Shown here one piece after another: positions 3,500 to 50,483 of a stretch of 56,187 nucleotides of DNA. A model generated the notes under the pieces. That model made no database searches. It worked only from the letters and a program-made list of their open reading frames with translations, and had not been told where the DNA came from. Source of the DNA: a virus; the IMG/VR virus record IMGVR_UViG_3300036852_000099, positions 1 to 56,187 of that record, one strand, 5' to 3'. Made by a program: the position numbers and the translations under genes. Numbering within the stretch: position 1 is the stretch's first letter; each line of letters begins with the position of its first letter.

Positions 3500-3791
3500 C
3501 TTCCCTCCTTTTGAGTCTGGCCTCACTGACTTTGGTGGAAAAGCACACCTTACACTCACTGCGCAGACCGTAGCGGCCTGCAGGCTTACCCTTACGGGTT
3601 CGACGGTAGAAATAGCGAGGGACTGCGGGGTACTCCAGCCCACAGCCCTTGCACTCGATAGTACGGGCACGACAGGATAGGCATACACGCTGCAGGTGCA
3701 GGTGTGGTCGCTCTGACAACCACCCTGCACTACCAGTGAACATGGCCTCCTCGTACTCGTTACCACAGGCACTGCAACTAGACATTGGCAT
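3462..3791 (-). CDS. Small zinc-ribbon protein
   Basis: A 109-aa protein with four CxxC knuckles (CSAC, CLSC, CKGC, CKVC), enough for two structural zinc sites, followed by a very basic tail. This suggests nucleic-acid binding. The start at 3791 uses the GAGGAAG within the end of purB, whose stop it overlaps; a second ATG lies at 3785. It is the gene directly after purB and is translationally coupled to it. The precise role is unknown. Confidence 0.7.
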   Translation of the reverse strand: MPMSSCSACGNEYEEAMFTGSAGWLSERPHLHLQRVCLSCRARTIECKGCGLEYPAVPRYFYRRTRKGKPAGRYGLRSECKVCFSTKVSEARLKRREDDRHRGTPARRL

Positions 3792-5175
3792 TGACTTCCT
3801 CTATAGCCCGAATGCAGGCTAACACGCAGGGTTCGATCACGTGGCGCTCGTTGAATGCCCCGTTCACATTCAAGCTGTCCGGCCAGCGCGATGCTATGAC
3901 GTGCCTCAGCGACTGCATGATGGGGTAGTTCTTCACTAACTCGCCTATGGTGTGGTGCAGCGTGGTGCGATCCGAGTGGCGTGTGCGTAGGGCATACGAC
4001 AGGATGGTGGATGACCACACCCGCGAGTCGTTGAATACGTCACTATCGTACTTCATCTTCAGGGCAGTGACCGCGTTATTCAGGCTGTCCAGCATGTAGG
4101 CCGTGATCGAGGATACCTGCTGCCAGACCACCCGACGCTGGGCTGAGTCGTCCAGGGTTCGCATGTCGATCTGGTCGGCTGTAATGCCCCATGCACCAGT
4201 ACACAGGCTGTGGACTAGCTGCGACAGTGACGACAGCTGCTCCCACGTGGCTGGGTTGTGCTTGTGCGGCATGGCCGATGACCCGACTACACCGGATTCG
4301 TCCCACCACTCGCCCTCACTGTACAGGAATCGGGCGGTGATGGCCAGTCGGTGAATAGCCGCTGCTACTCGGTCTATCAGTGCAAGTAAGGCGTACTCGT
4401 TGTGGCGCGGGGCAGTCTGGGTGGCGTGTTTGGCCAGTTCCATGACCGTTGGTGGTATACGCATGTGATCACACACGGATGCTAACACGTCGCGTTCGAA
4501 CAAGGTAGAGGATAGGTCTACCTCGCGACGGATGAAACGACGCTGGACGTGGCTCGTGCCAACTGCACCGCGCACCGACTTGGCCTGAACCTTGAACTTC
4601 TCCAGGTCGAGAAAGATGCCCTGGAACTCGACCATGTGACCCATCAGCCGGAAGCCCTGCGTGATAGGCTCGGCTACCTGCATGTGGGTGTAACCTCGGC
4701 ACGGGTAGTCCTTAGTTGCTGCCACCTGTCGTGCCATCATCCGCACAACCCGCCGGAGCAGGTGTCGAATCTCAGTGACAGTCTGGGCTATGCGAACCGA
4801 GTCGACCAGATCGACCACATCGCTGCTCGTCATATCCAGGTGTACAAGGTCGTGTGGCATCGAACCACCGTCCTTTTCAACTAGGCGGTGGACTGCCCCT
4901 TGTGCCAGTTGGCGCAGGGCTTCGACCTCGTGACCGACCTCGCGTTCGTGGGTACGGACTGCCCTTACTAGTGCGTCCAAGCCCAAGTCGAACCACTCAT
5001 CGTTGTACTCCAGCAAGGCTTCAGCGGTAGTGACGAATGACAGGTCGCTTATACCTGCATAGTGCTTGGACTGGCACAAGGCCACCATCGCCCAGACCTG
5101 CAGCATCAGGCTGTACCGTTGCCCGTCATCCCAGATGTTGTCCATGTCGTTGGTAGTGTAGCGGCTGGCGTTCAT
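3778..5175 (-). CDS. purB: Adenylosuccinate lyase (PurB-like)
   Basis: A 465-aa member of the fumarase/aspartase superfamily, close to the usual PurB length. PurB removes fumarate from adenylosuccinate (and from SAICAR). Visible motifs: HEVEAL near residue 82, TSSDVVD at 117-123, the catalytic THMQVAEP block with His164, the signature loop GSSAMPHKHNP at 298-308, and LDDSAQRR near 341. All positions expected for activity are present. The start at 5175 was chosen because ATG overlaps the upstream stop (ATGA) with AGGTGAGG 5 nt before; the frame stays open upstream to 5358, but that extension lies inside the neighbour. In a phage that also encodes PurZ, the natural role is to convert the dGMP-aspartate adduct to 2-amino-dAMP. 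That role is inferred; the family call is firm. Confidence 0.95.
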   Translation of the reverse strand: MNASRYTTNDMDNIWDDGQRYSLMLQVWAMVALCQSKHYAGISDLSFVTTAEALLEYNDEWFDLGLDALVRAVRTHEREVGHEVEALRQLAQGAVHRLVEKDGGSMPHDLVHLDMTSSDVVDLVDSVRIAQTVTEIRHLLRRVVRMMARQVAATKDYPCRGYTHMQVAEPITQGFRLMGHMVEFQGIFLDLEKFKVQAKSVRGAVGTSHVQRRFIRREVDLSSTLFERDVLASVCDHMRIPPTVMELAKHATQTAPRHNEYALLALIDRVAAAIHRLAITARFLYSEGEWWDESGVVGSSAMPHKHNPATWEQLSSLSQLVHSLCTGAWGITADQIDMRTLDDSAQRRVVWQQVSSITAYMLDSLNNAVTALKMKYDSDVFNDSRVWSSTILSYALRTRHSDRTTLHHTIGELVKNYPIMQSLRHVIASRWPDSLNVNGAFNERHVIEPCVLACIRAIEEVNANV

Positions 5176-7868: not shown

Positions 7869-8272
7869 AGCTGCACCATGACGATAACCGACCTATCCTT
7901 ATCTACGTCCACCCTGATGTACTGGTGCAGCACGTCCTCCGATACGAACATCGACTCCCTACGGTCTACGCTGCCATCGTTCCACAGCAGGACTGTCGTA
8001 CCACTGGCTAGATTGCCATCCATCACATCCGGAATCAGCCGGATCGACACTAGGCGTTTGGTCATGCGAGGCTGGCGCATTAGTGTCTGATAGCCTGTGA
8101 ACACAGCCAGTTGTGCACGGACGCGGATGTACTCAGTCACTAGGTGATCCATCTGGTCGACTAAATCGGGCGATCCTGGAAGCCTAGCCTCCCAGGGTAC
8201 ACGTTCATCCACCCGCCTCAGTTTGTCCAGTAGGAGGTTCAGGTTCTGCTCCGGTGTGTTCATTCGGTTCAC
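7865..8272 (-). CDS. Hypothetical protein
   Basis: A 135-aa protein. The start is uncertain: GTG at 8272 has GGGAG 10 nt before it, while ATG at 8263 gives 132 aa. An N-terminal helical half is followed by a beta-rich half. It overlaps the zinc-ribbon gene upstream by 68 bases. No family is recognised. Confidence 0.6.
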   Translation of the reverse strand: MNRMNTPEQNLNLLLDKLRRVDERVPWEARLPGSPDLVDQMDHLVTEYIRVRAQLAVFTGYQTLMRQPRMTKRLVSIRLIPDVMDGNLASGTTVLLWNDGSVDRRESMFVSEDVLHQYIRVDVDKDRSVIVMVQL

Positions 8273-8780
8273 GTTCTCTCATCTCCCTTTGTAGTCTGGC
8301 TAGGGCGAGGACTTCCTCACCGTAGCGCTTAACAAACTCGACCACACTCATGTACTGGATCTCGGTTTCAGGTGCGCTGTTCATGACACGAGTAGTTCGT
8401 CCAGTGATGCGCGACAGGTCGCACACGTCCCAATCAGCCACGCCTAGTCCCTTAGCTGCTTCGCGGGTGGGTTGCACCAATCTAGGGTGTATGACGCACA
8501 GCCAGTCCTTCTTGATGCCGCGCTGCTCCAGTGGGTCTTTGAGCATCTCGACTGCCTTCATCAGGGTGTCATAGTCCAGCGACGGGCTGATGTGGCTGGC
8601 ACTGTCAGCCGTGCTGTAGTTTGGTGAGTCCAAGCGATACGCCTGCAACACACCATCGCCATCCCTGACTGGGTACGGGTTGGCCGACTTAGGTAGTGAC
8701 ACACCACAGTTGGTGCAAGTGTAGTCACCGCTGGGCGTTGGGACTAGGAAGCCCGTGTGACAGAACTGGCAGATCGTCAT
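8205..8780 (-). CDS. Zinc-ribbon protein
   Basis: A 191-aa protein. The N-terminus carries a classic zinc ribbon, CQFC at residues 4-7 and CTNC about 15 residues later. The central part (residues 70-150) is globular and unknown, and the C-terminus is Glu/Pro-rich and disordered. It is coupled by overlap to both neighbours. A role in nucleic-acid binding is inferred only from the zinc ribbon. Confidence 0.7.
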   Translation of the reverse strand: MTICQFCHTGFLVPTPSGDYTCTNCGVSLPKSANPYPVRDGDGVLQAYRLDSPNYSTADSASHISPSLDYDTLMKAVEMLKDPLEQRGIKKDWLCVIHPRLVQPTREAAKGLGVADWDVCDLSRITGRTTRVMNSAPETEIQYMSVVEFVKRYGEEVLALARLQREMREREPNEHTGAEPEPPTGQTEAGG

Positions 8781-9004
8781 CGGAGTTTGTTCCTCCCTGC
8801 TTGGGTGGCGTAGTAAGCATCCTCACGTTGGTAGCGGGTATGAGCCACATAGCCATACTGGAACAGCTGCTCCATGATCTCGACCACCTCTGGCGTACGC
8901 GCTGGGTAAGGCTCACCATAGTGATCCTGCAAGTTGATGCAGCGCTGCAGGTGGTCTTGCTGCAGGGGTGTCAGTTCGACTGGTTCACGCAGTTTGCCTG
9001 TCAT
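8777..9004 (-). CDS. Hypothetical small protein
   Basis: A 75-aa protein, mostly helical, with a possible winged-helix-like end (EIMEQLFQYGYVAHTRYQRE). ATGA overlaps join it to both neighbours. The function is unknown. Confidence 0.65.
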   Translation of the reverse strand: MTGKLREPVELTPLQQDHLQRCINLQDHYGEPYPARTPEVVEIMEQLFQYGYVAHTRYQREDAYYATQAGRNKLR

Positions 9005-17473: not shown

Positions 17474-18848
17474 AGGCATAGTAGCCTTCGCCCATGACGT
17501 GATCGGACTGGACGGGTCAACCAAGAGCAAGACTCTAGCACCCTACCAAGCCGATATCCTCAGCCAGTTCGCACGAGACAAGCGTCTGGCAGTCCGAGGA
17601 TTACACGGCATCGGCAAGACCGCCATCGCATCGTGGGTGGTGCTGTGGGCGCTGTCAGTGTTCGAAGGCGATGTGAAGGTTGTGACCACAGCCAGCGCAT
17701 GGAGGCAGTTAACGCATTACCTCTGGCCGGAGATACGCAAATGGGCGCAGGTCTGCAAGTGGGAGGTCATGGACAATGGGGTACAGATCCGATACGGCAA
17801 GGAACTACTGGAGTACTCGATCAAACTGAACGCCAAAGAAGCCTTCCCTGTTGCGTCGAACAACCCCTCCCTTATTGAGGGTGCGCATGCCTCTACGCTG
17901 GTGTACGTGTTCGATGAGGCGAAGGCGATTCCGGACGAAACGTGGGACTCAGCCGAGGGTGCGTTCTCGACAGGCAACTGCTACGCACTAGCGATATCCA
18001 CACCAGGGGACGCAACTGGTCGATTCTACGACATCCACAGCCGGAAGGCGGGGTATGAGGATTGGGGTATACGGCACGTCACACTAGACGAAGCCATAGC
18101 TGCTGGGCGGGTCGACGCAGATTGGGCAGAAAAGCGGCGGATACAGTGGGGCGAGAACAGTCCGGTGTACCTGAACCGCGTATTAGGCGAGTTCAGTAAG
18201 AACGACCCGCATGCCCTCATCCCGCTGCAGTGGGTGGAGGAGTCCAACAACCTCTGGCATGAGATGGGTGGCAAAGGCAAGAAGGAAGACAGCCTGACAT
18301 ACGGCTTGGACGTTGCGTGGCAGGGCGATGACAAGTCCAGCCTAGCCCGTAAGCGGGGTGTCGTGGTCGAGTCCCTGGAGATGTACGGAAACTACGACCC
18401 GATGGAACTGGCTGGAATGGCCATAGTCCAGATGGCTGGCGATAAGGAGTCCGCCATAGCAGTCGACTCCAACGGCATCGGTGCAGGGGTATACGCACGA
18501 CTGAACGAACTCGGCTACAACGCAGTACCCTGTAACGTGTCCGAGGGTACAGATGAAAGGGACGAGTCTGGCGAGTTAGGGTTCTTCAACCTGCGATCCT
18601 TCATTTGGTGGAGGATGCGCGAGTTGCTCGACCCGAAGAACCCAGACCGCATAGCCCTCCCTCCTGATGATGGTCTTACTGGCGACCTGACTGCTCCGAA
18701 GTGGTCACCGACTAGTAAGGGTCTGATCAGGGTAGAGGGCAAGGAAGACATCAAAAAGCGGCTGAAACGGTCAACCGACTCAGCTGATGCAGTGGGTCTG
18801 GCAATCTACGCGGATATTGAAACACAGGCATGGACGGAGATATGGTAG
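17358..18848 (+). CDS. Terminase large subunit
   Basis: A 496-aa packaging motor. The ATPase half has Walker A GLHGIGKT (residues 81-88) and Walker B VYVFDE (182-187). The nuclease half has the expected acidic positions: TYGLDVAW, IAVDSNG and DSADAVGLAIY. It cuts and pumps DNA into the prohead with the small subunit and portal. The start is uncertain: ATG at 17358 or 17364 share the AAGGCGG site, and GTG at 17427 would reduce the overlap with the small subunit. It overlaps the portal fusion gene by 19 bases. Confidence 0.93.
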   Translation: MSMTLRYSPESKLTSKQRLGQSLVEGLSPSKHRNYQSPEGIVAFAHDVIGLDGSTKSKTLAPYQADILSQFARDKRLAVRGLHGIGKTAIASWVVLWALSVFEGDVKVVTTASAWRQLTHYLWPEIRKWAQVCKWEVMDNGVQIRYGKELLEYSIKLNAKEAFPVASNNPSLIEGAHASTLVYVFDEAKAIPDETWDSAEGAFSTGNCYALAISTPGDATGRFYDIHSRKAGYEDWGIRHVTLDEAIAAGRVDADWAEKRRIQWGENSPVYLNRVLGEFSKNDPHALIPLQWVEESNNLWHEMGGKGKKEDSLTYGLDVAWQGDDKSSLARKRGVVVESLEMYGNYDPMELAGMAIVQMAGDKESAIAVDSNGIGAGVYARLNELGYNAVPCNVSEGTDERDESGELGFFNLRSFIWWRMRELLDPKNPDRIALPPDDGLTGDLTAPKWSPTSKGLIRVEGKEDIKKRLKRSTDSADAVGLAIYADIETQAWTEIW

Positions 18849-21800
18849 AAAACGCACTGCTACAGCCATCTGCTATCCTCCCCTTCGATCCGGATGCTAT
18901 CACCAGGGCAGTCCAGAACCCTGAAGACGGGGATGGTGAGCGCTACGTCATCATGAACGACGACTTAGTGCCGTATTCAACCTACAGGTCGAGCTTCCAC
19001 ACTGCGTGGGAGCGGTCACTGTCTGGCCTGCAGGTTAGTGAGCAGGCTAAGCAGCAGGCATACGCGATATCCGCTGCAGCATTCGCAGCTACTCAGTACC
19101 GCTGTCTGACCATATCGCAAGTCCCTGGTGTGATAGTCGACCAGTCCAAGAACGATCCGGTGGAGTGGCATCCGCTTATTGGGTTCATGCCCTATATGGG
19201 GAAGCTCATGTGGCAGATCGAAGTGTCGCTGCTGATTTGGGGCGTATGCTACCTCAAGAAGGTGTACAACCGCTACGGCTACCCATCGAGCCTCTGCTGG
19301 GTGCATCCTGAGGATATCACGCCACAAACCGACCAGTACGATGAAGTGTACGAGTACTACGAACGCATGAGCGGCGTGGCCATCAAGCGTCATCAGATGG
19401 TGGAAATTCGGACGTTCGACCCTGACAGGTCACTGCAGGGGAAGTCGGCATATGAAGTCGCCATGTCCCACATCACTACTGAGCGCAATCTCGTGATGCA
19501 TGCTGGGTCGTTCTTCTTTAACTCAGCGCGTCCCGATGGCATCCTGGTTTCGAAGACCCGACTGGATAAGGAGGGTAAGCTCAAGGCCAAGAAGGATTGG
19601 GAGCAGTTCAAAGGGTCTGGTAACGCGTGGCAGACTTTCGTGTCGGGTGGCGATTGGGACTGGATACCCATCACGATTCCACCTGTCGACTTGGCCATGA
19701 CTGAACTGAAGGACGGGTCACAGAAGGACGTATGCGCTATCTTCCGGACTAACGGCGCTCTGATCGGTCTGGCCAGCGTCTCCGACCCGCTATCGGCGGG
19801 GTCTACACTGGCGACAGTTAAGCGGAATCACGTCGAAGCTGTCACCCTGCCAGAGTACAACGACATCGCCCACGACATGAACACGCAGTGGCTCTGGACT
19901 GACTTTGACGAGAAGAACTACTACACCCTGATAGCCAACGAAGCCGACATGCCGATCTTGTCGGATGTGTCAGGGGAAATGTCCACAGTTGCAGTGAACC
20001 TGACTAACCCGCTCAACCCTGTGGTCGACTACGACGAAGCGCGTAAGTTCATGAACCTATCACCCCGCGAGGGGTACATAGGTCGACCACCGGATCAGTC
20101 ACTGGCTATGGTCAACGGTACACTGATCACGGTTAACGAGGGTCGGCAGTTCCTGAGTCTTGAACCGTACCAGATTGACATGCTGAAGACACCAGACGGT
20201 AAGCTGATCCGAGCGTCTGATCTCGGCAAGTACCTGGATGCCACGATGGAACTGATAGTAAGCCCACCTGCTCCCCCAGCCGGAGGCGGATTCGGTGGTG
20301 GGTTCGGTCTGACAGGTGGTCAGCCCATGCTCCCATCCGGTGGACAACCACAGCCACCCACTGCACCGACACCGAATAACCCTTACGACGCATTCCGGCT
20401 TCCACTGTCGAACTCGCGTTCTGGCAGCGGGTGTGCAGTCGTGCTGCAGTTCAGTGGTGATGAGTTGGTGAGGTCTATCCAGACCATCCTCAAGACCCAA
20501 CTGCCAGACAGCATCGCCCATGTCTGGTGTGATCCTAAGGACTTCCACCTTACACTGTACCAGTGCGAGGTATGCTCGATGGCTCAGGAAACCGAGCTAT
20601 ACTCAGCCCTGAATGTGACCAAACCTCTCCCCGTCATGGTGAAGGGTACTACCTCCTTCCAGCAGGACGGGTATATGGTCTTGGTGCTGCAGATCGAACC
20701 ATCCGAAGAGTTAGTGGCGCTGCAGTCGAAGATCTACGAGAAGGCTGAGTCGATTGGGATCACCAGTTCATCGGACTACAGCGAACCGTCGAAGTGGAAG
20801 CCCCACATCACCGTAGCCTACCTTGATCCGGAGACACCCATCGAGGAGTCGTTGTTCAATGTCCAAGTTCAGCCAACCGCCATCGCAGTTACTAAATCGG
20901 AGTACCAGCCTACTTACACCAAAGATATCGCTGCTGCACCTAAAGAGGAAGTGGGTCGAGGACGCAGGTCGAATACACCCTACGTGGAGGTTGCAGTCGA
21001 CTTCGCCAATAACGCCTTCCTTAAGACCGCACAGCGTGTACTGTCTCATTGGGCGGCGACGGAGGGAGGCATAGAGGTCAACTGGTATGACCCAGCCACC
21101 TTGCGTATGCCCCTGATAGAGATGCAGAACCTCACCTCCATGCAGGCGGCACGGGCTATGGAACTGGTGTCCTCGGCTGGTATGGCCAGGGCAGATGTGT
21201 ACACGGGTGAATACGCGATCCGCGACGGTCAAATAGGCGTGGTGGTTGCAGCGACTGATGAGGTCGACAACATCCGTAGTGCAGCGATGCTGCAACTGGA
21301 CGAATTAGCAGATACCTTCCATGCCGAGGGATGGTCACCGTTTGTGCCACTAGGGGCGATCCAGGGCGAGTCCGAGGCTCGGAGTCTATGGGCTTCCGAT
21401 GGTTATCCGCTGGTACTGTCGGCTATTACCATGTACACGGGTACACTGCGTCGTGGGCGCTGGGAGTTGCGCCACAAGACGCAGGTATCAAAGGAACTGG
21501 TCAACTGGCAGCGGGTAGTAGAGCGCAAAGGTCGCGATCACTGGTTCACACCAGAATACGCAGGTCAGCTGGTGTCGGACTTCGTACGGTCAGCCCTGCA
21601 AGACACCGATGCCACTATCGATGAGGTATTCGCACGGGCTAAGGAGATCGAAGAGTCCGGCCTGACCTACGTCGATCCTGATATCGAACCCACACCAGAG
21701 GAGGCGCTGGAGTATTGGCGCAACTACGACGAGGCTAAGGCCGACATAGGGCAGGACTGGTACTCGTACATGACTAGGGTTCTACCGGATATCTTGTCGT

Positions 21801-23284
21801 GGATCAAGACGGAGACCAAGCCATCCTCGGTGACCGAGGTTTTGGCACGACACCACGATAAACTCCGCGACGATTGGGTAGGGACGGAGGAGAATCCTGG
21901 TGCACTGTACTCGGTGGTTCTGGCAGGCATGGCGGCTGGGAACGAGGCACTAGTTAAGGGTGTCAGCATGAACCCTGAAAGCCGCGTTGCAAAGGTCGGT
22001 GTGGCCATCGAGTGGGATCTCCTGTCCACACAGGCTCGTGACTTTGCCAGACAGTACACCTACAAACTCATCAAGGGTATCGACGCGACGACTGCCAGGA
22101 TGGTGCAGGGGATATTCGATGAGTGGACTACTACAGGCAAGCCATTCACGGAACTGGCCAAGGCGCTGGAGGTCGTGTTCAAGGATAAACAACGCGCTGC
22201 ACAGATAGCCCAGACCGAGGGTATACGGGTCTATAACGAGGGCGCATTCAAACGCTGGACGGATGTGGGTGTTAAACGGGCTAAATGGCGCACAGTCCAG
22301 GATGGCATCGTCTGTCGGGTATGCAAGCCACTGAATGGTCAGGTGGCTGACATGAAGACAGGCTGGATCAGCCCATCGCGTAAGGGCGGGTTCAAGACCT
22401 ACACCACCTCAGCCCATAGCGGGTGCAGGTGCTTCCGGACACCAGACACGACGGGCATACTGGAGGATGTTAAACAGGATTACAAGCCCGTAAAGGTCGT
22501 AGCCCCAGCACCACCGCCGATGCAGGTTTCGTCCGAGTTCGTCGCTCCGACACCCGCACGGGTAGCAGGTCTGGATGCCTACCGTGATCTTAACACAGAT
22601 GAGCCGACTGGCCGAATCCGCCAACCTGGAGATCCGGTACTAGGCGAGATTTACAAGCGGAACGGCTACGATGGTAGGCCGAATGTGGTAACGCCAGAGA
22701 CTATCGACCAGCTACGGGCGGATGGTCATAGGATCGTCTATCGTGGTGTCACTGATGCCAAGTTCGCTGAGCAGTTCAGGGACGGGGAGTACTTCCCTGG
22801 TCTAGGGATATACGGCAATGGGACATACACGGCAGTGGGCAGCGATGCCGACAACCACACCGATGCTCTGGACACAGCCCGTGAGTATGCTACCGAGCAG
22901 GGGTACGTGATGCGCATGGCGATCCATAAGGATGCTAAGATCGTCACCCTGAAGGAGATCCAGCAGATGGCGCAGGACGAGCTAGAGGCCTCGGCGGAAA
23001 GAGTACGGCAGGCTAGGAAAGCCGTGTACGCAGTACCCCACGACCACCCTGATGCAGCTGCTCTGGAGGCGACATTCCAGAGTGAGAAGGCCAGGGACAA
23101 CGACGTGCATAGGCTGGTGATGGATGAAGGCAGATATGCCTCCATCATGGGCTACGATGGTGTACTGGTCGAACGCAACTCAGCAGCGGGTCAAGGTATA
23201 GGCGACTACTTGGTGATGCTGAACCGAACCGCCATAGCAGTAGATACGAGAAACTGGAATGGGAAAGTGAGCTATAACGACTAA
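18830..23284 (+). CDS. Portal / tandem 2H phosphoesterase / MuF / ADP-ribosyltransferase-like fusion
   Basis: One 1,484-aa ORF. Residues 1-475: phage portal. 478-517: Gly/Pro linker. 530-700: 2H phosphoesterase (LigT-like) with both motifs, H573-L-T and H659-I-T. About 716-846: a second 2H-like unit whose two His are replaced (R759, F838), so probably inactive. About 1010-1205: MuF minor head domain, with C1162-x-x-C1165 and HSGCRC at the end. About 1260-1475: a region like phage ADP-ribosyltransferases: YRG at 1304-1306, GIYGNGTYTA near 1326-1335, then KDAKIVT and GIGDYLVMLN. The portal ring would sit at the DNA entry vertex with MuF inside the head. The extra domains may be cleaved and injected; that is inferred. 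The ART call is less certain than the rest. Confidence 0.85.
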   Translation: MDGDMVENALLQPSAILPFDPDAITRAVQNPEDGDGERYVIMNDDLVPYSTYRSSFHTAWERSLSGLQVSEQAKQQAYAISAAAFAATQYRCLTISQVPGVIVDQSKNDPVEWHPLIGFMPYMGKLMWQIEVSLLIWGVCYLKKVYNRYGYPSSLCWVHPEDITPQTDQYDEVYEYYERMSGVAIKRHQMVEIRTFDPDRSLQGKSAYEVAMSHITTERNLVMHAGSFFFNSARPDGILVSKTRLDKEGKLKAKKDWEQFKGSGNAWQTFVSGGDWDWIPITIPPVDLAMTELKDGSQKDVCAIFRTNGALIGLASVSDPLSAGSTLATVKRNHVEAVTLPEYNDIAHDMNTQWLWTDFDEKNYYTLIANEADMPILSDVSGEMSTVAVNLTNPLNPVVDYDEARKFMNLSPREGYIGRPPDQSLAMVNGTLITVNEGRQFLSLEPYQIDMLKTPDGKLIRASDLGKYLDATMELIVSPPAPPAGGGFGGGFGLTGGQPMLPSGGQPQPPTAPTPNNPYDAFRLPLSNSRSGSGCAVVLQFSGDELVRSIQTILKTQLPDSIAHVWCDPKDFHLTLYQCEVCSMAQETELYSALNVTKPLPVMVKGTTSFQQDGYMVLVLQIEPSEELVALQSKIYEKAESIGITSSSDYSEPSKWKPHITVAYLDPETPIEESLFNVQVQPTAIAVTKSEYQPTYTKDIAAAPKEEVGRGRRSNTPYVEVAVDFANNAFLKTAQRVLSHWAATEGGIEVNWYDPATLRMPLIEMQNLTSMQAARAMELVSSAGMARADVYTGEYAIRDGQIGVVVAATDEVDNIRSAAMLQLDELADTFHAEGWSPFVPLGAIQGESEARSLWASDGYPLVLSAITMYTGTLRRGRWELRHKTQVSKELVNWQRVVERKGRDHWFTPEYAGQLVSDFVRSALQDTDATIDEVFARAKEIEESGLTYVDPDIEPTPEEALEYWRNYDEAKADIGQDWYSYMTRVLPDILSWIKTETKPSSVTEVLARHHDKLRDDWVGTEENPGALYSVVLAGMAAGNEALVKGVSMNPESRVAKVGVAIEWDLLSTQARDFARQYTYKLIKGIDATTARMVQGIFDEWTTTGKPFTELAKALEVVFKDKQRAAQIAQTEGIRVYNEGAFKRWTDVGVKRAKWRTVQDGIVCRVCKPLNGQVADMKTGWISPSRKGGFKTYTTSAHSGCRCFRTPDTTGILEDVKQDYKPVKVVAPAPPPMQVSSEFVAPTPARVAGLDAYRDLNTDEPTGRIRQPGDPVLGEIYKRNGYDGRPNVVTPETIDQLRADGHRIVYRGVTDAKFAEQFRDGEYFPGLGIYGNGTYTAVGSDADNHTDALDTAREYATEQGYVMRMAIHKDAKIVTLKEIQQMAQDELEASAERVRQARKAVYAVPHDHPDAAALEATFQSEKARDNDVHRLVMDEGRYASIMGYDGVLVERNSAAGQGIGDYLVMLNRTAIAVDTRNWNGKVSYND

Positions 23285-41032: not shown

Positions 41033-41461
41033 ATGCTGATGAAACCGAGACGACTTAGGAACGTAGTACGGCACGTGAACCGAGTAGCTGCAGTGATACA
41101 CCTACTCGTCGCACTGGTCGTGCTACTGCACCCATCCAAACCTAGCGAGTTCATTGTGTCAGTGTTGGGTGGATACTTCAGTACCCAAGCTCTGTCGTTC
41201 CTAATAGCTATGGCAGGGGTTAGGTGGGCGATATGGCCGATGACCTCATCCTGGTTGATGCTCTGTTGCCTGCCCATGCTGGTGCTTGCAGCATTCAATA
41301 CCGCATACCTGTTGATTGAAGAAACGCAGTCACTATGGCCTCCTATTGTGTACTACGGCTGTGGTGTCATCGTAATATCAGTTAACTGGTACTATCTACT
41401 GGAGACTGCAGGTGGAAGATTTGACGTTCCTATCGTTCCAAGTTCCGACACCCACACCTGA
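41033..41461 (+). CDS. Four-helix membrane protein, possible holin
   Basis: A 142-aa protein from ATG 41033 (GAAGAGG upstream); the frame also opens at 41015. Four hydrophobic segments: VIHLLVALVVLL, FIVSVLGGYFSTQALSFLIA, LMLCCLPMLVLAAFNTAYLL and YYGCGVIVISVNWYYLL. The N-terminus is basic. It lies at the start of the lysis region and could be a holin or holin partner. It overlaps the next gene by 50 bases. Confidence 0.6.
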   Translation: MLMKPRRLRNVVRHVNRVAAVIHLLVALVVLLHPSKPSEFIVSVLGGYFSTQALSFLIAMAGVRWAIWPMTSSWLMLCCLPMLVLAAFNTAYLLIEETQSLWPPIVYYGCGVIVISVNWYYLLETAGGRFDVPIVPSSDTHT

Positions 41462-42056
41462 TCTAGACCCGACTAATATCGGGTCGGTCATAACAGCCGT
41501 AAGTGTGATCGCGATTTTCATCGCCAATCTTATCATCCAATACAAGGCTGGTAAGAAGGAGATACCCAACCAGTCAAAAGATGTAGTAGATGTGGTGAAC
41601 GAGAATAAGCACCTAAAGGAGAAGGTGGACAGTCTACTGGCAGCTAACACCAAGCTGCTGTCCATGACGAACCTCGGCACGATAGTCTGCATCGAGGACG
41701 ACCCGAATGACACCGACCTGCTACGCAGGCAGCTGAAACGGATCGGGCTGGCCAATCCGGTGGTGTGGTTCGATAGTCTGGAGATGGCCTACATCTTCAT
41801 TGGTGAAAACGCGGTGCTGTTCATCATGGTCGACGTTAGCATGATAAGCAATGGCTTCCGATTTCTAGAGACGCTGAAGGACAACCCTGACACCAGGGAT
41901 ACACCCATCATACTGGTGTCAGGGACGCAGGTGGAGGACATCACAGGATACCGGAAGGGTGCTATAGGCTACTGTGAAAAGCCAGTAAACATCGAGAAGC
42001 TGCTGAATGTACTGAACCTTCACGGGTTCGACATGAGTATAAGGATGGTACTATGA
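41412..42056 (+). CDS. Membrane-anchored CheY-like receiver protein
   Basis: A 214-aa protein with a GTG start and GGAG 7 nt before it. Residues 24-43 form one transmembrane helix, 50-85 a short coiled coil, and 88-210 a response-regulator receiver domain. All key positions are there: acidic pocket E95-D96-D97, phospho-acceptor D141 (IMVDVSM), Ser170 (LVSGTQ) and Lys190 before Pro (CEKPVN). No output domain or kinase is present in the window. A receiver of this kind normally takes a phosphate from a histidine kinase. Coupling to membrane and lysis genes suggests control of lysis timing or interference with host signalling; both are inference. Confidence 0.85.
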   Translation: MEDLTFLSFQVPTPTPDLDPTNIGSVITAVSVIAIFIANLIIQYKAGKKEIPNQSKDVVDVVNENKHLKEKVDSLLAANTKLLSMTNLGTIVCIEDDPNDTDLLRRQLKRIGLANPVVWFDSLEMAYIFIGENAVLFIMVDVSMISNGFRFLETLKDNPDTRDTPIILVSGTQVEDITGYRKGAIGYCEKPVNIEKLLNVLNLHGFDMSIRMVL

Positions 42057-45949: not shown

Positions 45950-46232
45950 ACTCTCCCCTAATAGCTATAGCCTCTGCCTCATCAGCAGTTCGAATTAAAC
46001 CGATACGTGCACCTGCAGCTTTCCATTCCAGCAGCTTCATGCACTGAGCGATGGTCGGGTGGTCGTCATAGCTCTTTTTGGCCTCCATAGCGAAAGCCCG
46101 ACCCTGGTACGATCCAACGAGGTCTGGTTCACCCAGACGCGAGAAGGGTGAGCCGTGAATCTTGATCACGACACACCCCAATTTCTTTAATCGCGCCAGG
46201 GCAGCATCGACCACTGCCTTTTCTAGCGGCAT
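45882..46232 (-). CDS. VRR-NUC domain nuclease
   Basis: A 116-aa stand-alone VRR-NUC protein: GEPDLVG (catalytic Asp), then AMEAKKS (E-x-K), then a conserved Gln in PTIAQ and WKAAGARIGLI. These PD-(D/E)XK-fold nucleases act on branched or flapped DNA. It is complete and lies beside the SNF2 helicase. Confidence 0.88.
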   Translation of the reverse strand: MPLEKAVVDAALARLKKLGCVVIKIHGSPFSRLGEPDLVGSYQGRAFAMEAKKSYDDHPTIAQCMKLLEWKAAGARIGLIRTADEAEAIAIRGEYVGLTEILRIQDETLGTPEDRT

Positions 46233-46963
46233 TAGACCTCCGCTGGCACTTTACGCCATGCACCCAAGCTACGGGCTAGTACCAGGAGGCAATTCTCCAT
46301 GTCAGGGTACACCCACGTATCCAGGTCATGCGCTTCGACGTGCTTGGCTAGTTCGTCCTTGTCACCCCACACCACGACTGTCTTGCCCAGCGACTTGGCC
46401 ATCTCGATCTCACGGATAGTACCAAATCCGCGTTTGTCGGTCATGTTGACCACCATGCCCTGACAGCTGGCCAGTGCAGCGCGGTTGATCTGGCTGATGA
46501 AGACCCTAGGCAGCGGTTGGTTGTGTCCTACCTGGAAGGCGGTAGACGGGTCATAGCTGGTGATGCCATAGTTGGCCAAGGTCGACTTGGCGTGTTTCCT
46601 CCAGGTCTTGGCGTATAGCTCATCAACCGCGTCGATGCTCCCTGCCAGATAGACGGTAGGATGTGGGTGCTGCTCGTCGCCTAGGATCGGGATTTCCTCA
46701 CTGCCCCATGACCCATCCAGCAGCATCTTCCCGATTAGGCCGTAGTTCAGCACGTCCAAGAACGTATCCTCGATACCCTCGAAGTTAGGGGCGTATGCCC
46801 CTGGTCGGGTGAGGTTTAGCAGGCGGTGGATTTTGTCAGTCAGCCGGACTGCCACACCGTATACACCAGTCTTACTGATGTTGTCACTGCCATAGTCGGC
46901 ATTCTTGCGCTCCATCAGGTCGAGCGCGTCCTTGATGATCTTCTCAGCGGCGGCTTTGTTCAT
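46232..46963 (-). CDS. DUF1599 / nucleoside deoxyribosyltransferase-like fusion
   Basis: A 243-aa protein. ATG at 46963 follows AAAGGGAAC; the frame is open much further upstream, but that part lies inside neighbours. Residues 1-90 match DUF1599 (nucleotide-modification-associated domain 1): MERKNADYGSDN, then LTDKIHRLLNL, then DTFLDVLNYGLI, a helical fold reminiscent of MazG-type NTP pyrophosphatases. Residues 102-232 match the nucleoside 2-deoxyribosyltransferase fold: VYLAGSID and GFGTIREIEMAKSLGK, whose Glu fits the catalytic position. That family moves or removes the base of deoxynucleosides or dNMPs. Set in the PurZ operon, it is the best candidate for dNTP pool editing. Substrate unknown. 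Confidence 0.75.
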   Translation of the reverse strand: MNKAAAEKIIKDALDLMERKNADYGSDNISKTGVYGVAVRLTDKIHRLLNLTRPGAYAPNFEGIEDTFLDVLNYGLIGKMLLDGSWGSEEIPILGDEQHPHPTVYLAGSIDAVDELYAKTWRKHAKSTLANYGITSYDPSTAFQVGHNQPLPRVFISQINRAALASCQGMVVNMTDKRGFGTIREIEMAKSLGKTVVVWGDKDELAKHVEAHDLDTWVYPDMENCLLVLARSLGAWRKVPAEV

Positions 46964-47144
46964 CGTTCTGTTCCCTTTCATGTGACTCGTAGCAGTGTGC
47001 GTGAATGTCCTGGTCGTGCACCCAGGAGTATGCGATCTGGTCGACGTGCACATCGACTTCGTGCTTGCAGTAGGGGCAGATTGGGAATACGCTGTCGAAC
47101 ATGCCCTCATCGCCCTTGTCCCACATATCTCCGATGTTTATCAC
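46944..47144 (-). CDS. Small Cys/His (zinc-finger-like) protein
   Basis: A 66-aa protein with a GTG start overlapping the dUTPase stop. CPYC followed by HEVDVH and HAHC gives a possible zinc site. It overlaps the start of the DUF1599 fusion. The function is unknown. Confidence 0.6.
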   Translation of the reverse strand: MINIGDMWDKGDEGMFDSVFPICPYCKHEVDVHVDQIAYSWVHDQDIHAHCYESHEREQNDEQSRR

Positions 47145-47629
47145 TTTCCTGTACTCCCAAACCCAGCGCTACCACGCTCGGTGTCCTTAGTCGCGTACTG
47201 GAACGCGTCGATTGGCATGAACTCCCACTGCACTGGAATCACCAGATGGTGGAAAAGTATCTGAGCCAGCCTAGTCCCTTTCGGTACTATGACCGTCTTG
47301 CCGTTGGGATTGGACACACCGATGAATAGCTCACCTGTGTACCCCTGGTCGATTATGCCCTCCTGCACCTGCAGATGCCACGTGCGAAAGGTCGAACTGC
47401 GATTGGTGATCCGGCCATACACCCCATCGGGCATCCGGATATGCACCCCTGTGTGAACGTCCACAAAGCTCCCTGGAGGGATCTCGATGTGTTCGATGGT
47501 GTGCAGGTCGTAGCCTGCATCACCCTTATACTTCCGTGTAGGCTGGCACGTGTCCAGATTGGCAGGGGCGAATATGACCGGAGGCGGCGCTAGCACCCAC
47601 AGCGCAAATCGCCTGAGTAGTTGCCTCAC
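47141..47629 (-). CDS. dut: dUTPase
   Basis: A 162-aa trimeric-type dUTPase with all five motifs: DAGYDL (37-42), GRITNRSS (72-79), GIIDQGYTGEL (91-101), GTRLAQILF (118-126) and RGSAGFGSTG (152-161). It hydrolyses dUTP to dUMP and pyrophosphate, keeping uracil out of DNA and feeding dTMP synthesis. The GTG start overlaps the PurZ stop, so the two are translationally coupled. Confidence 0.95.
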   Translation of the reverse strand: MRQLLRRFALWVLAPPPVIFAPANLDTCQPTRKYKGDAGYDLHTIEHIEIPPGSFVDVHTGVHIRMPDGVYGRITNRSSTFRTWHLQVQEGIIDQGYTGELFIGVSNPNGKTVIVPKGTRLAQILFHHLVIPVQWEFMPIDAFQYATKDTERGSAGFGSTGK

Positions 47630-48723
47630 AGGTCTTCCCCTGTCTCGACTACCTGAAATCCCTCGCCACCTGTGCCGACCAGCGACACCGGAGTACCAAA
47701 CCGCGCTTCCACGTAGTCGATGAATGCACGGGCGGTCTGGCTGAGTTCATGCTCCAGGGTCTTGCCACGATCCTGAGGACTGATGTAGTCCATGAAGGTG
47801 ATCGCGATGGAAGTAGGTGCGTTTAACAGCACTGACTGGTCGACCAAATCCTCGTCCCACCGACCAACACGGCGTACCTTTTTGGTGACGGTGGTCTTTT
47901 CCACGACTGTCTCACCAATTAACTCCGACAGTTGATCCCACGTTACCTCATCCTTCAGGTCACCACTGTTCCCAGCCACACGGATAGGGTAGGTGCGGCA
48001 TACCAGCATTACCTGATCCACGTGCTGGGGCGGGATGCCAGCATCAGCGGCCATCTGTGCGGCGTTCGTGCCGTTGCTGGTCACATATGGCCACTGGCCA
48101 TGAATAAGGTCGAGACCACTGCCCTGTGTACCCTCCAGGAGGATATCTTGGCCGAGGTTGCGCTGCTGCTGCAGGTAGCGCGGGGTGTCGTCGTGGAGGC
48201 ACTGCGACAGCTTACTGCCATCGCTGAACTCAACATCACCCTCCTGTTTGATGTACTCGGCAACAGTCAGGAACTTCAGCGGATCGCGCATCAGGCGATC
48301 ACGTCGTGCTGCACCGACACCCTTACCAGTCGAACCGATACGCTGGTGTAGCTCACCCTGTACACCTCCTTCCTCGTCCATGTGCCATTGGGATATCACC
48401 CCACAGCGGCTGTCCACGATCAGGCGGTGGGTGAAATACGGGTCGATTTCCAGTATCTCGTTAACTTCGCGTTTCAGGATGTCCATCTCGATCAGACCAC
48501 CCCGACCAATCACCAGGATCGCGTTAGGGTTCACCCAGCCACATGGGACAGTCTGCATGACCCGCTTCACACCCTGGTGCATGAAAGTGTGACCTGCGTT
48601 CGTGCCACCCGTCCGGACATGGACATTGTAGCGATCCGCGATATAGGCCACGATTACACCCTTGCCCTCCGACCCAAACTGCCCTCCGACTAGTGCGAGG
48701 ACGTGTCCTGTTCCTTTAGCCAT
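47626..48723 (-). CDS. purZ: PurZ: 2-aminoadenylosuccinate synthetase
   Basis: A 365-aa member of the adenylosuccinate synthetase family, shorter than bacterial PurA (about 430). The P-loop reads GGQFGSEGKG: Ser18 stands where PurA has its catalytic Asp. This substitution is the reported mark of phage PurZ, which joins dGMP and aspartate (using ATP or dATP) on the way to 2-amino-dAMP. Other family motifs remain: GGTNAGHT with catalytic His45, GSTGKGVGAA, LEGTQGSGLD and a C-terminal SLVGTGGEGF. GGAG lies 8 nt before the ATG. It sits directly after the DNA polymerase and is coupled to dut. The call is firm; the base in the virion DNA still has to be measured. Confidence 0.95.
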   Translation of the reverse strand: MAKGTGHVLALVGGQFGSEGKGVIVAYIADRYNVHVRTGGTNAGHTFMHQGVKRVMQTVPCGWVNPNAILVIGRGGLIEMDILKREVNEILEIDPYFTHRLIVDSRCGVISQWHMDEEGGVQGELHQRIGSTGKGVGAARRDRLMRDPLKFLTVAEYIKQEGDVEFSDGSKLSQCLHDDTPRYLQQQRNLGQDILLEGTQGSGLDLIHGQWPYVTSNGTNAAQMAADAGIPPQHVDQVMLVCRTYPIRVAGNSGDLKDEVTWDQLSELIGETVVEKTTVTKKVRRVGRWDEDLVDQSVLLNAPTSIAITFMDYISPQDRGKTLEHELSQTARAFIDYVEARFGTPVSLVGTGGEGFQVVETGEDL

Positions 48724-48728
48724 TGTCT

Positions 48729-50483
48729 TTACTCCGTCATTAGTTGATAGGGCTGGAGTTCGCTCCAGCGTTTGCCGACTGAAACATCCACCTTAAACCG
48801 TACCTTCCACTCCTGGTCGGGCGGTGGTGGGATAGTGACCATAGTCTCTGCAGCGGCATCGATCAGCCAGGGCTTATCCTCCGGTATCTCCATTACTAGA
48901 CTGTCGTGAACGTGTAGTAGTTGGTGTAGACCCTCACCACGCAGGTTGCGCCACACGTTAGTAGCAGCAATCCGCATCATCTCGGCCACACCACCCTGAA
49001 TCAGGCCAGAACTGGCCGTGTTCTCGTAGTTGTGCTCATCGAATCGGCGCAGTCGTCCAGTGAACATCTGGATATACCCGTCGCGCTTGGCAGCACCCAG
49101 ACAGGCTTGGTACAGCCGCTTCATTTCGGGGTGCACCTTGTGGTACTGGTTCAGGTACTCCCTAGCCTGTTTGATGCTAACCTTCAGGTCATTCGCCAGT
49201 GCCTTGTCGCCTATGCCGTACTGCATCGAGAAGTTCAGCCGCTTTGCAGCGTCATAGTCGATGTTGACCCACGCGGCGGTTTCCTTATGGACGTTTACAC
49301 CGTTGTTGATCATGCGCAGCATATTGGTGGCGTTGGCGTAGTGTGCGCCTAGGTAGATCTCCGCCTGCTTATAGTCGGCCACCACGAACAGGTGACCAGG
49401 ACGAGCCACGAAGACCTTCTTGATGCCAGATCGCGGGTCGTTGATGTCGTCTTTGATCTGGCGTGGGATCGCCTGCAGGTTAGGCTCACTGCAGGACAAC
49501 CGACCCGTAGCCGTACCTGTCAGGTTCAGGTTAGGGTGGATCACCCCATCAGCATCCGCATGCTCCAGGAAGGCCTCGTAGTAGGCACTCTTCATTTTCA
49601 CATGGCGACGGTATCGGATGATCTCGTCTACTCCAGGTTTGTCGAGCGTTTCCAGGATATCAACAGCACTGCTACTCACACCAAAGAGAGCCTGCACCTG
49701 CTTGGGGCTGTTAGGGTTGACCGGATAGCCGACTATACGAGCCAGCGCGATCTCGGCCTCCTTCTTTCCGTCGATACTGTCGTGTATGCTCTGGCGTGTT
49801 TGTCGTTTGTCCAGCAGCATACCCCTGCGCTCAATGTCCACTACAGCCAGTTCGAAGACGTTAGTCTCCTGCCACAGCCGATACAGCCCAGAGTCCGCTA
49901 GCTTTTCAGCGTAGAAATCACGGAGTCGTCTGGTGTACAGTACGTCGTCCTCGGCATAGGCACTGACCATACTGGCAGGCAACTTCCACATCTGGCCTTT
50001 GTCACCTACGTGCATACTGGCACGGCGCTTGGTGTAGCCTGCTGCTTTCAGTGCGGCCAGCAGTTCTTCGGATTCATCCGCTGCAGTTGGGTCGATGTAC
50101 TTACGGGCGAGGTACTTCAGGGCGTGGCTGTGTTCATTCTCGTTGTACAGGTGGGCAGCTAACATCGCGTCCTCTATCCTGGTCGGGAACGCGAATCCTT
50201 CATTCAGCAGGTACTTGATATCGAACTTACCATTCCAGAACAGCAGGGTCTTGGGCAGTGCCAGTGCCATGCGCAGCGCGTCCATCTGGCGTGGGTCAAG
50301 GTTCTCGCCTTCCCCATGCCGGAATGGGAAGTAGTAGGACTCATTATCAGCTTCTATGGCGATACCGCAGATCAGGTCACCACCATAGGTGTCCAGTCCT
50401 GTTGTTTCCAAGTCAACAGTGATACGTTCGCAGTCCCAAACGTGCACCATCGCATCATAGAAGTTGTCGCTATTTACCAGCAT
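48729..50483 (-). CDS. Family A DNA polymerase, DpoZ-like candidate
   Basis: A 584-aa polymerase. ATG at 50483 has AAAGGAC before it. The 3'-5' exonuclease is intact: DLETTGLD (D24, E26), NGKFD (88) and YAEDD (176-180). The polymerase domain has TGRLSCSEPNLQAIP (327-340), motif A VVADYKQAE (D370), the O-helix KRLNFSMQYG (414-423) and motif C HVHDSLV (D527), where Ser528 replaces the usual Glu of HDE. It lacks a 5' nuclease. It lies directly before purZ. Polymerases in this position in known Z phages form the DpoZ group; membership here needs a tree. Confidence 0.92.
   Translation of the reverse strand: MLVNSDNFYDAMVHVWDCERITVDLETTGLDTYGGDLICGIAIEADNESYYFPFRHGEGENLDPRQMDALRMALALPKTLLFWNGKFDIKYLLNEGFAFPTRIEDAMLAAHLYNENEHSHALKYLARKYIDPTAADESEELLAALKAAGYTKRRASMHVGDKGQMWKLPASMVSAYAEDDVLYTRRLRDFYAEKLADSGLYRLWQETNVFELAVVDIERRGMLLDKRQTRQSIHDSIDGKKEAEIALARIVGYPVNPNSPKQVQALFGVSSSAVDILETLDKPGVDEIIRYRRHVKMKSAYYEAFLEHADADGVIHPNLNLTGTATGRLSCSEPNLQAIPRQIKDDINDPRSGIKKVFVARPGHLFVVADYKQAEIYLGAHYANATNMLRMINNGVNVHKETAAWVNIDYDAAKRLNFSMQYGIGDKALANDLKVSIKQAREYLNQYHKVHPEMKRLYQACLGAAKRDGYIQMFTGRLRRFDEHNYENTASSGLIQGGVAEMMRIAATNVWRNLRGEGLHQLLHVHDSLVMEIPEDKPWLIDAAAETMVTIPPPPDQEWKVRFKVDVSVGKRWSELQPYQLMTE

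Follow-up and report, generated by a model that had tools for sequence, protein, structure and literature searches.

The PurZ0 synthetases of actinophages have been reported to use GTP, and the PurZ of phages S-2L and phiVC8 uses ATP. The dUTPase family of PurZ0 phages (DutZ) hydrolyses dATP and dGTP, as described together with the enzymology of DmtZ and DUF5664 (PMC12884076). That paper does not mention PurB and assigns the lyase step to the host, and one of its sentences reverses the ATP and GTP preferences of PurZ0 and PurZ, against its own introduction. Regarding replication, a helix-O Tyr-to-Phe substitution is the only change common to both characterised clades of the aminoadenine-selective polymerase DpoZ, and no single residue is likely to account for selectivity towards 2-aminoadenine (Z) (PMC8599892).

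Here we describe a purZ locus in a window of 56,187 nucleotides, the whole stretch of viral DNA that was analysed. An earlier note had read this locus as a PurZ with a diagnostic Asp-to-Ser change in a probable Z genome. Our best reading is likewise a PurZ-type enzyme, in a phage whose genome is probably of Z type, and it rests on more than the serine: the dGMP-pocket residues, a dUTPase of the PurZ0-phage type, a DmtZ-like domain, an encoded PurB and a co-inherited polymerase clade add to its basis. We infer, with a probability of about 0.8, that Z is synthesised by the phage for incorporation into its DNA; what we observed are the genes and their arrangement, the conservation of catalytic and pocket residues and the tree topologies, from which the reactions and the base composition of the virion are deduced.

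The purZ locus and its partner genes

The window probably covers the greater part of the genome of a tailed phage that has not been cultured. Neither a terminal repeat nor a tRNA was found in it, and a megablast comparison of positions 31200-56187 (25 kb) with known phages gave no match. The best matches of the terminase are to Streptomyces and Actinoplanes phages at 45%, the others being very mixed, and they indicate no firm host. No nucleotide kinase gene was recognised in a scan of the window's ORFs that took in part of the small ones. We also observed a 1484-aa ORF (18830-23284) that combines an N-terminal portal protein with a C-terminal head-morphogenesis/minor head protein, and, among structural and lysis genes, an ORF (41412-42056) whose product apparently has a response-regulator receiver-like domain behind a membrane segment, with PHROG matches to unknown families only. 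The features considered below are the following:

48729-50483, minus strand: family-A DNA polymerase with a 3'-5' exonuclease domain, 584 aa from an ATG
47626-48723, minus strand: purZ, ATG start, serine-type adenylosuccinate synthetase of 365 aa (predicted 2-amino-N6-succino-dAMP synthetase)
48658-48675, minus strand: GSEGKG motif, PurZ residues 17-22, with Ser18 in place of the catalytic Asp of PurA
47141-47629, minus strand: trimeric-type dUTPase, nearest to PurZ0-phage dUTPases (DutZ type); a dATP/dGTP diphosphatase by prediction
46944-47144, minus strand: ORF of 66 aa that overlaps both dut and the fusion gene; its product has a CxxC...HxxC pattern
46679-46963, minus strand: DUF1599-like, all-alpha N-terminal domain of the fusion gene; predicted dNTP pyrophosphatase
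46232-46663, minus strand: nucleoside deoxyribosyltransferase (NDT; DmtZ-like), C-terminal domain of the fusion gene
3778-5175, minus strand: purB-like adenylosuccinate lyase gene, 465 aa from an ATG at 5175

The product of 47626-48723 is, by sequence, beyond doubt an adenylosuccinate synthetase homologue, with matches far beyond chance to Pfam PF00709 (E 6e-59) and to PHROG 1211, '2-aminooxy adenylosuccinate synthetase' (E 1.5e-73). It scores 242.7 bits against the NCBIfam PurZ model NF038379, under the curated cut-off of 300 bits, and 291.5 bits against the archaeal-type PurA model, also under its cut-off. The earlier note had placed this ORF correctly and omitted its strand, which is minus. 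It had likewise described purZ as coupled to dut and directly preceded by the polymerase gene, and indeed the purZ stop and the GTG start of dut overlap by 4 nt, while 5 nt separate the stop of the upstream polymerase gene from the start of purZ. The small CxxC ORF and then the fusion gene follow dut, with overlaps throughout the run. The order PolA-PurZ-Dut recurs in loci of the clade to which the window PurZ belongs. In the sequence analysed around purZ, five clade loci show neither dut nor ndt (L015, L017, L022 and the near-identical L018 and L033), and a sixth (L026) has an NDT gene without dut.

When ranked by similarity against 950 phage records, the 25 best matches of the window dUTPase are, without exception, dUTPases of PurZ0 phages. 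The fusion gene (46232-46963, start at 46963) encodes 243 aa in all. A PDB sequence search with its product gave no match; the folded model of its NDT domain matches DNPH1, MilB and deoxyribosyltransferases. All six residues of Ghobes DmtZ that were compared are present in this domain (Y6, D12, P57, N77, G99 and E103), while conservation does not extend to W124 in the lid of DmtZ; Asp at position 12 is replaced by other letters in three chromosomal NDT controls. By alignment, the catalytic Asn lies in QINRAA and not in VVNMT. The same fusion occurs in L014 and L027, the two domains are separate in L001 and L002, and no record in the phage collection matches at least 80% of the fusion protein. 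Comparison of the DUF1599-like domain with the small gene that follows purZ in PurZ0 phages gave an hhalign probability of 35%, so that homology between the two is only suggestive.

Two observations on other phages concern the same domain family. Immediately behind purZ, many PurZ0 phages carry a gene that terminates in a conserved domain without a name, weakly DUF1599-like and with the pattern K..EYG..DL..G ... DDT..D..VY..M ... G.W (examples are L004:7082-7645, L007:7113-8465, L008:4436-5338 and IMG/VR relatives); this gene is possibly another pool enzyme. In L034, a large phage contig (158,946 bases), a single ORF (8080-8808) adjoining a serine-type purZ fuses a DUF1599-like domain to a dUTPase.

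The purB-like gene at 3778-5175 was absent from the earlier note. Its product scores 69 bits against PF00206 and 150 bits against TIGR00928, the latter under the cut-off of 326, and its best matches among solved structures are adenylosuccinate lyases. The motifs THMQ and GSSAMPHKHNP fit the TH.Q and GSSAMPHK.NP of the Lyase_1 fold, and we regard the product as a predicted, divergent PurB-like lyase. PurB is rare in phages: among annotated isolates it is found in all six Gordonia and five Streptomyces PurZ0 records and in one Microcystis phage, the remaining phage matches being mostly unannotated contigs. Among full records of the contigs grouped with the window's clade, many of which are partial, only one other has PurB (L032, whose placement is uncertain).

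Active site, phylogeny and polymerase

The P-loop of the window PurZ reads QFGSEGKG, as the earlier note had reported for its GSEGKG core, and Ser18 aligns with Asp13 of E. coli PurA (Asp14 counting the initiator Met). The other catalytic parts named in that note are also kept, the histidine of GHT being His45 and the substrate loop reading TTVT, as in S-2L and phiVC8; the loop is GATT in E. coli PurA and GTVT in Pyrococcus PurA. When compared to the S-2L PurZ contacts named in PMC8342488, all dGMP-pocket residues are identical with the sole exception of Cys204, which is Val214 here; Val also stands at this position in the Acinetobacter Z-phage SH-Ab 15497. The pocket Thr of PurA is Ser131. 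At the base-contact positions 305 and 308 of S-2L, occupied by Asn/Gln in S-2L and phiVC8, the window PurZ resembles PurA and the PurZ0 of actinophages in carrying Thr309 and Asp312; the latter residue is shared by 23 of 23 clade members. Since this Asp is kept as in PurA and PurZ0, and is not the Asn/Gln of S-2L and phiVC8, the predicted nucleotide donor is likely GTP, in contrast to the ATP of those two phages. The AlphaFold model (pLDDT 94) has its best solved-structure match in Pyrococcus PurA (5k7x, TM-score 0.87 on the query), followed by a second Pyrococcus entry (2d7u) and PurZ0 (7vf6).

No annotated phage in a collection of 50,697 records is closer to the window PurZ than about 38% identity; scans of IMG/VR recovered about 22 contigs at 44-59%. 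When placed in a tree, as the earlier note had suggested, the protein falls in a clade of its own, which is neither PurZ0 nor the PurZ of phiVC8 and S-2L. This clade has 18 of the 70 rows of the IQ-TREE phylogeny (bootstrap 97, SH-aLRT 92) and is all-viral save for one MAG-binned contig, which has the same phage gene order. PurZ0 (94/92; core 100/100) and PurZ together with Bacillus phage vB_BpsS-140 (100/96) form separate groups. AU tests rejected joining the window PurZ without its own clade to PurZ0 alone (p 0.0002, a value that concerns PurZ0 membership, a sister relation of the two clades being neither supported nor rejected) or to phiVC8/S-2L PurZ alone (p 0.0004). A common origin for every phage PurZ, to the exclusion of the chromosomal forms, was marginally disfavoured (p 0.029). 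The likening of the enzyme to that of S-2L and phiVC8 thus does not hold: the tree excludes it, the guanine-binding Asp is kept and no DatZ was found, a search of the window for DatZ-like or HD domains giving no match while the S-2L and phiVC8 controls were detected.

The PolA tree shows the same three groups as the PurZ tree. Polymerases of the window's clade form their own group (SH-aLRT 100), outside DpoZ-2 and possibly sister to the DpoZ-1 group (SH-aLRT 87); the DpoZ-1 model gives the window PolA 199.9 bits, with a cut-off of 500. The trees and AU tests assign the window PurZ, together with its polymerase, to a third lineage of phages distinct from PurZ0 and from phiVC8/S-2L PurZ. The helix-O gate residue of the window PolA is Tyr (RLNFSMQYGIG), as in every PolA of its clade except the aberrant one of L026. 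As Tyr is also found in Keanu and in many IMG/VR PurZ0 contigs, this residue is informative and not decisive. Given its retention, control of the nucleotide pool, and not choice by the polymerase, may be what favours Z.

Chromosomal paralogues and alternative readings

A scan of genome contigs with the serine-type pattern gave 285 confirmed relatives, and the best 80 of these are nearly all bacterial or archaeal genes that carry GSEGKG and lie outside the phage clades. The Asp-to-Ser change, put forward in the earlier note as diagnostic, thus marks a wider family and not phage Z genomes as such, and it is residues and partner genes taken together that make the case for Z. Serine-type paralogues that were inspected more closely lie in recurrent operons of their own. 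In one of these, found in bacteria and archaea (L122, L139, L106, L105, L102, L128, L138 and L156), an RNaseH_2 exonuclease gene, sometimes with a kinase-like domain, lies upstream of the PurZ-like gene and/or a DCD/dUTPase-fold gene lies downstream, followed in L139 and L106, where this was checked, by a deoxynucleoside kinase; this operon has the look of a cassette serving an unusual purine deoxynucleotide in cells. A second chromosomal form, of about 535-600 aa, begins with a P-loop kinase-like domain, which is fused to a PurZ-like domain of the serine type (L108:7242-9715, L119:7410-9646 and L147:7437-9047). A DUF7002 gene follows it in L108 and L119 (Sorangium and Terriglobus), and an ORF of similar size in L147; a literature search for DUF7002 found no paper.

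In the route that we propose, the DutZ-type dUTPase and the DUF1599-like domain would convert dATP and dGTP to dAMP and dGMP. PurZ, probably using GTP, would couple dGMP with Asp to form succino-2-amino-dAMP, from which the phage PurB would release fumarate to yield dZMP, and host kinases would raise dZMP to dZTP. The DmtZ-like domain would destroy dAMP, perhaps moving its deoxyribose phosphate onto free Z base, and the phage PolA would copy the genome from a pool rich in dZTP and poor in dATP. In its fullest form, to which we give roughly even odds, this is a third Z-DNA phage lineage of separate descent from an archaeal-type, GTP-using, serine-type synthetase, with its own polymerase clade that lacks the DpoZ Phe, a lyase of its own in this member, and, as the main means of making Z, control of the nucleotide pool by a fused dNTP-pyrophosphatase/DmtZ enzyme.

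The helix-O Tyr and the presence of pool enzymes also suit a variant of this explanation in which the polymerase is unselective and a mixed A/Z genome has its Z content set by pool control only, as has a precedent in S-2L, where dATP is removed by DatZ and the PrimPol is unselective (PMC8065100, PMC8342488). We consider this variant possible but unlikely, since the Tyr-to-Phe change is not universal even within the PurZ0 lineage and Z selectivity is not expected to hang on one residue (PMC8599892). That serine-type genes are common on bacterial and archaeal chromosomes, beside kinase, DCD/dUTPase-like and exonuclease genes, raises a different reading, namely a PurA paralogue of other function, for instance one making an unusual purine nucleotide that is kept out of phage DNA. 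The window, however, has partners of the PurZ0-phage type (DutZ-like, DmtZ-like, PolA and PurB), and the virtually all-viral membership of the clade, with phage gene order even in its MAG-binned contig, makes this improbable. An ordinary auxiliary PurA/PurB pair that boosts AMP supply during infection would account for two consecutive steps of AMP synthesis and for a Pyrococcus PurA as nearest solved structure; yet Ser replaces the catalytic Asp, the T-to-S and G-to-T pocket changes are of PurZ and not of PurA type, and the neighbouring enzymes would deplete dATP, so that we hold it to be very improbable.

If synthesis of Z for the phage's own DNA is the correct reading, Z-DNA occurs in at least three lineages of phages, each of which assembled its polymerase and pool enzymes separately; the one added here is known in this analysis from metagenomes only, and it offers a test case of whether Z-DNA can be made by a polymerase that lacks the Phe gate. 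The phage gene set could cover the path from dGTP to dZMP without a host lyase, which would be useful for Z-DNA production in cells.

Comparison with known systems

The likeness to PurZ0 (Ghobes, Wayne and Keanu; 7vf6) lies in the P-loop Ser and the guanine-type Asp in a T-F/M-x-D motif, and PurZ0 phages share the dUTPase and NDT partners, with PurB also in Gordonia and Streptomyces members. In contrast, identity is about 33-37%, the window PurZ and PolA lie outside the PurZ0 clade and DpoZ-1, respectively, and the window NDT is fused to a DUF1599-like domain whereas theirs is fused to DutZ or free-standing. The PurZ of phiVC8, S-2L and SH-Ab 15497, which occurs with DatZ/MazZ, shares the P-loop Ser, the dGMP-pocket residues and the TTVT loop, but has Asn or Gln (ATP type) where the window has Asp312 (GTP type), and no DatZ was found in the window. 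Archaeal PurA (Pyrococcus horikoshii, 5k7x) is the best structural match and shares the short archaeal-type fold and the guanine-binding Asp; it differs in its P-loop Asp, its GTT and GTVT pocket letters and its use of IMP. The catalytic Asp that defines PurA in GDEGKG is Ser18 here.

Chromosomal serine-type paralogues carry GSEGKG and most pocket residues and often adjoin a DCD/dUTPase-fold gene, but they occupy separate tree branches, in operons with RNaseH_2/kinase, DCD and dNK genes or as a kinase fusion with DUF7002. The window PolA resembles DpoZ as a polymerase with a 3'-5' exonuclease adjoining purZ, and differs in belonging to neither DpoZ-1 nor DpoZ-2, in its helix-O Tyr in place of Phe and in scoring under the NCBIfam DpoZ cut-offs. 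As a whole, the gene set would work like that of a PurZ0 phage but falls outside the PurZ0, PurZ and DpoZ clades.
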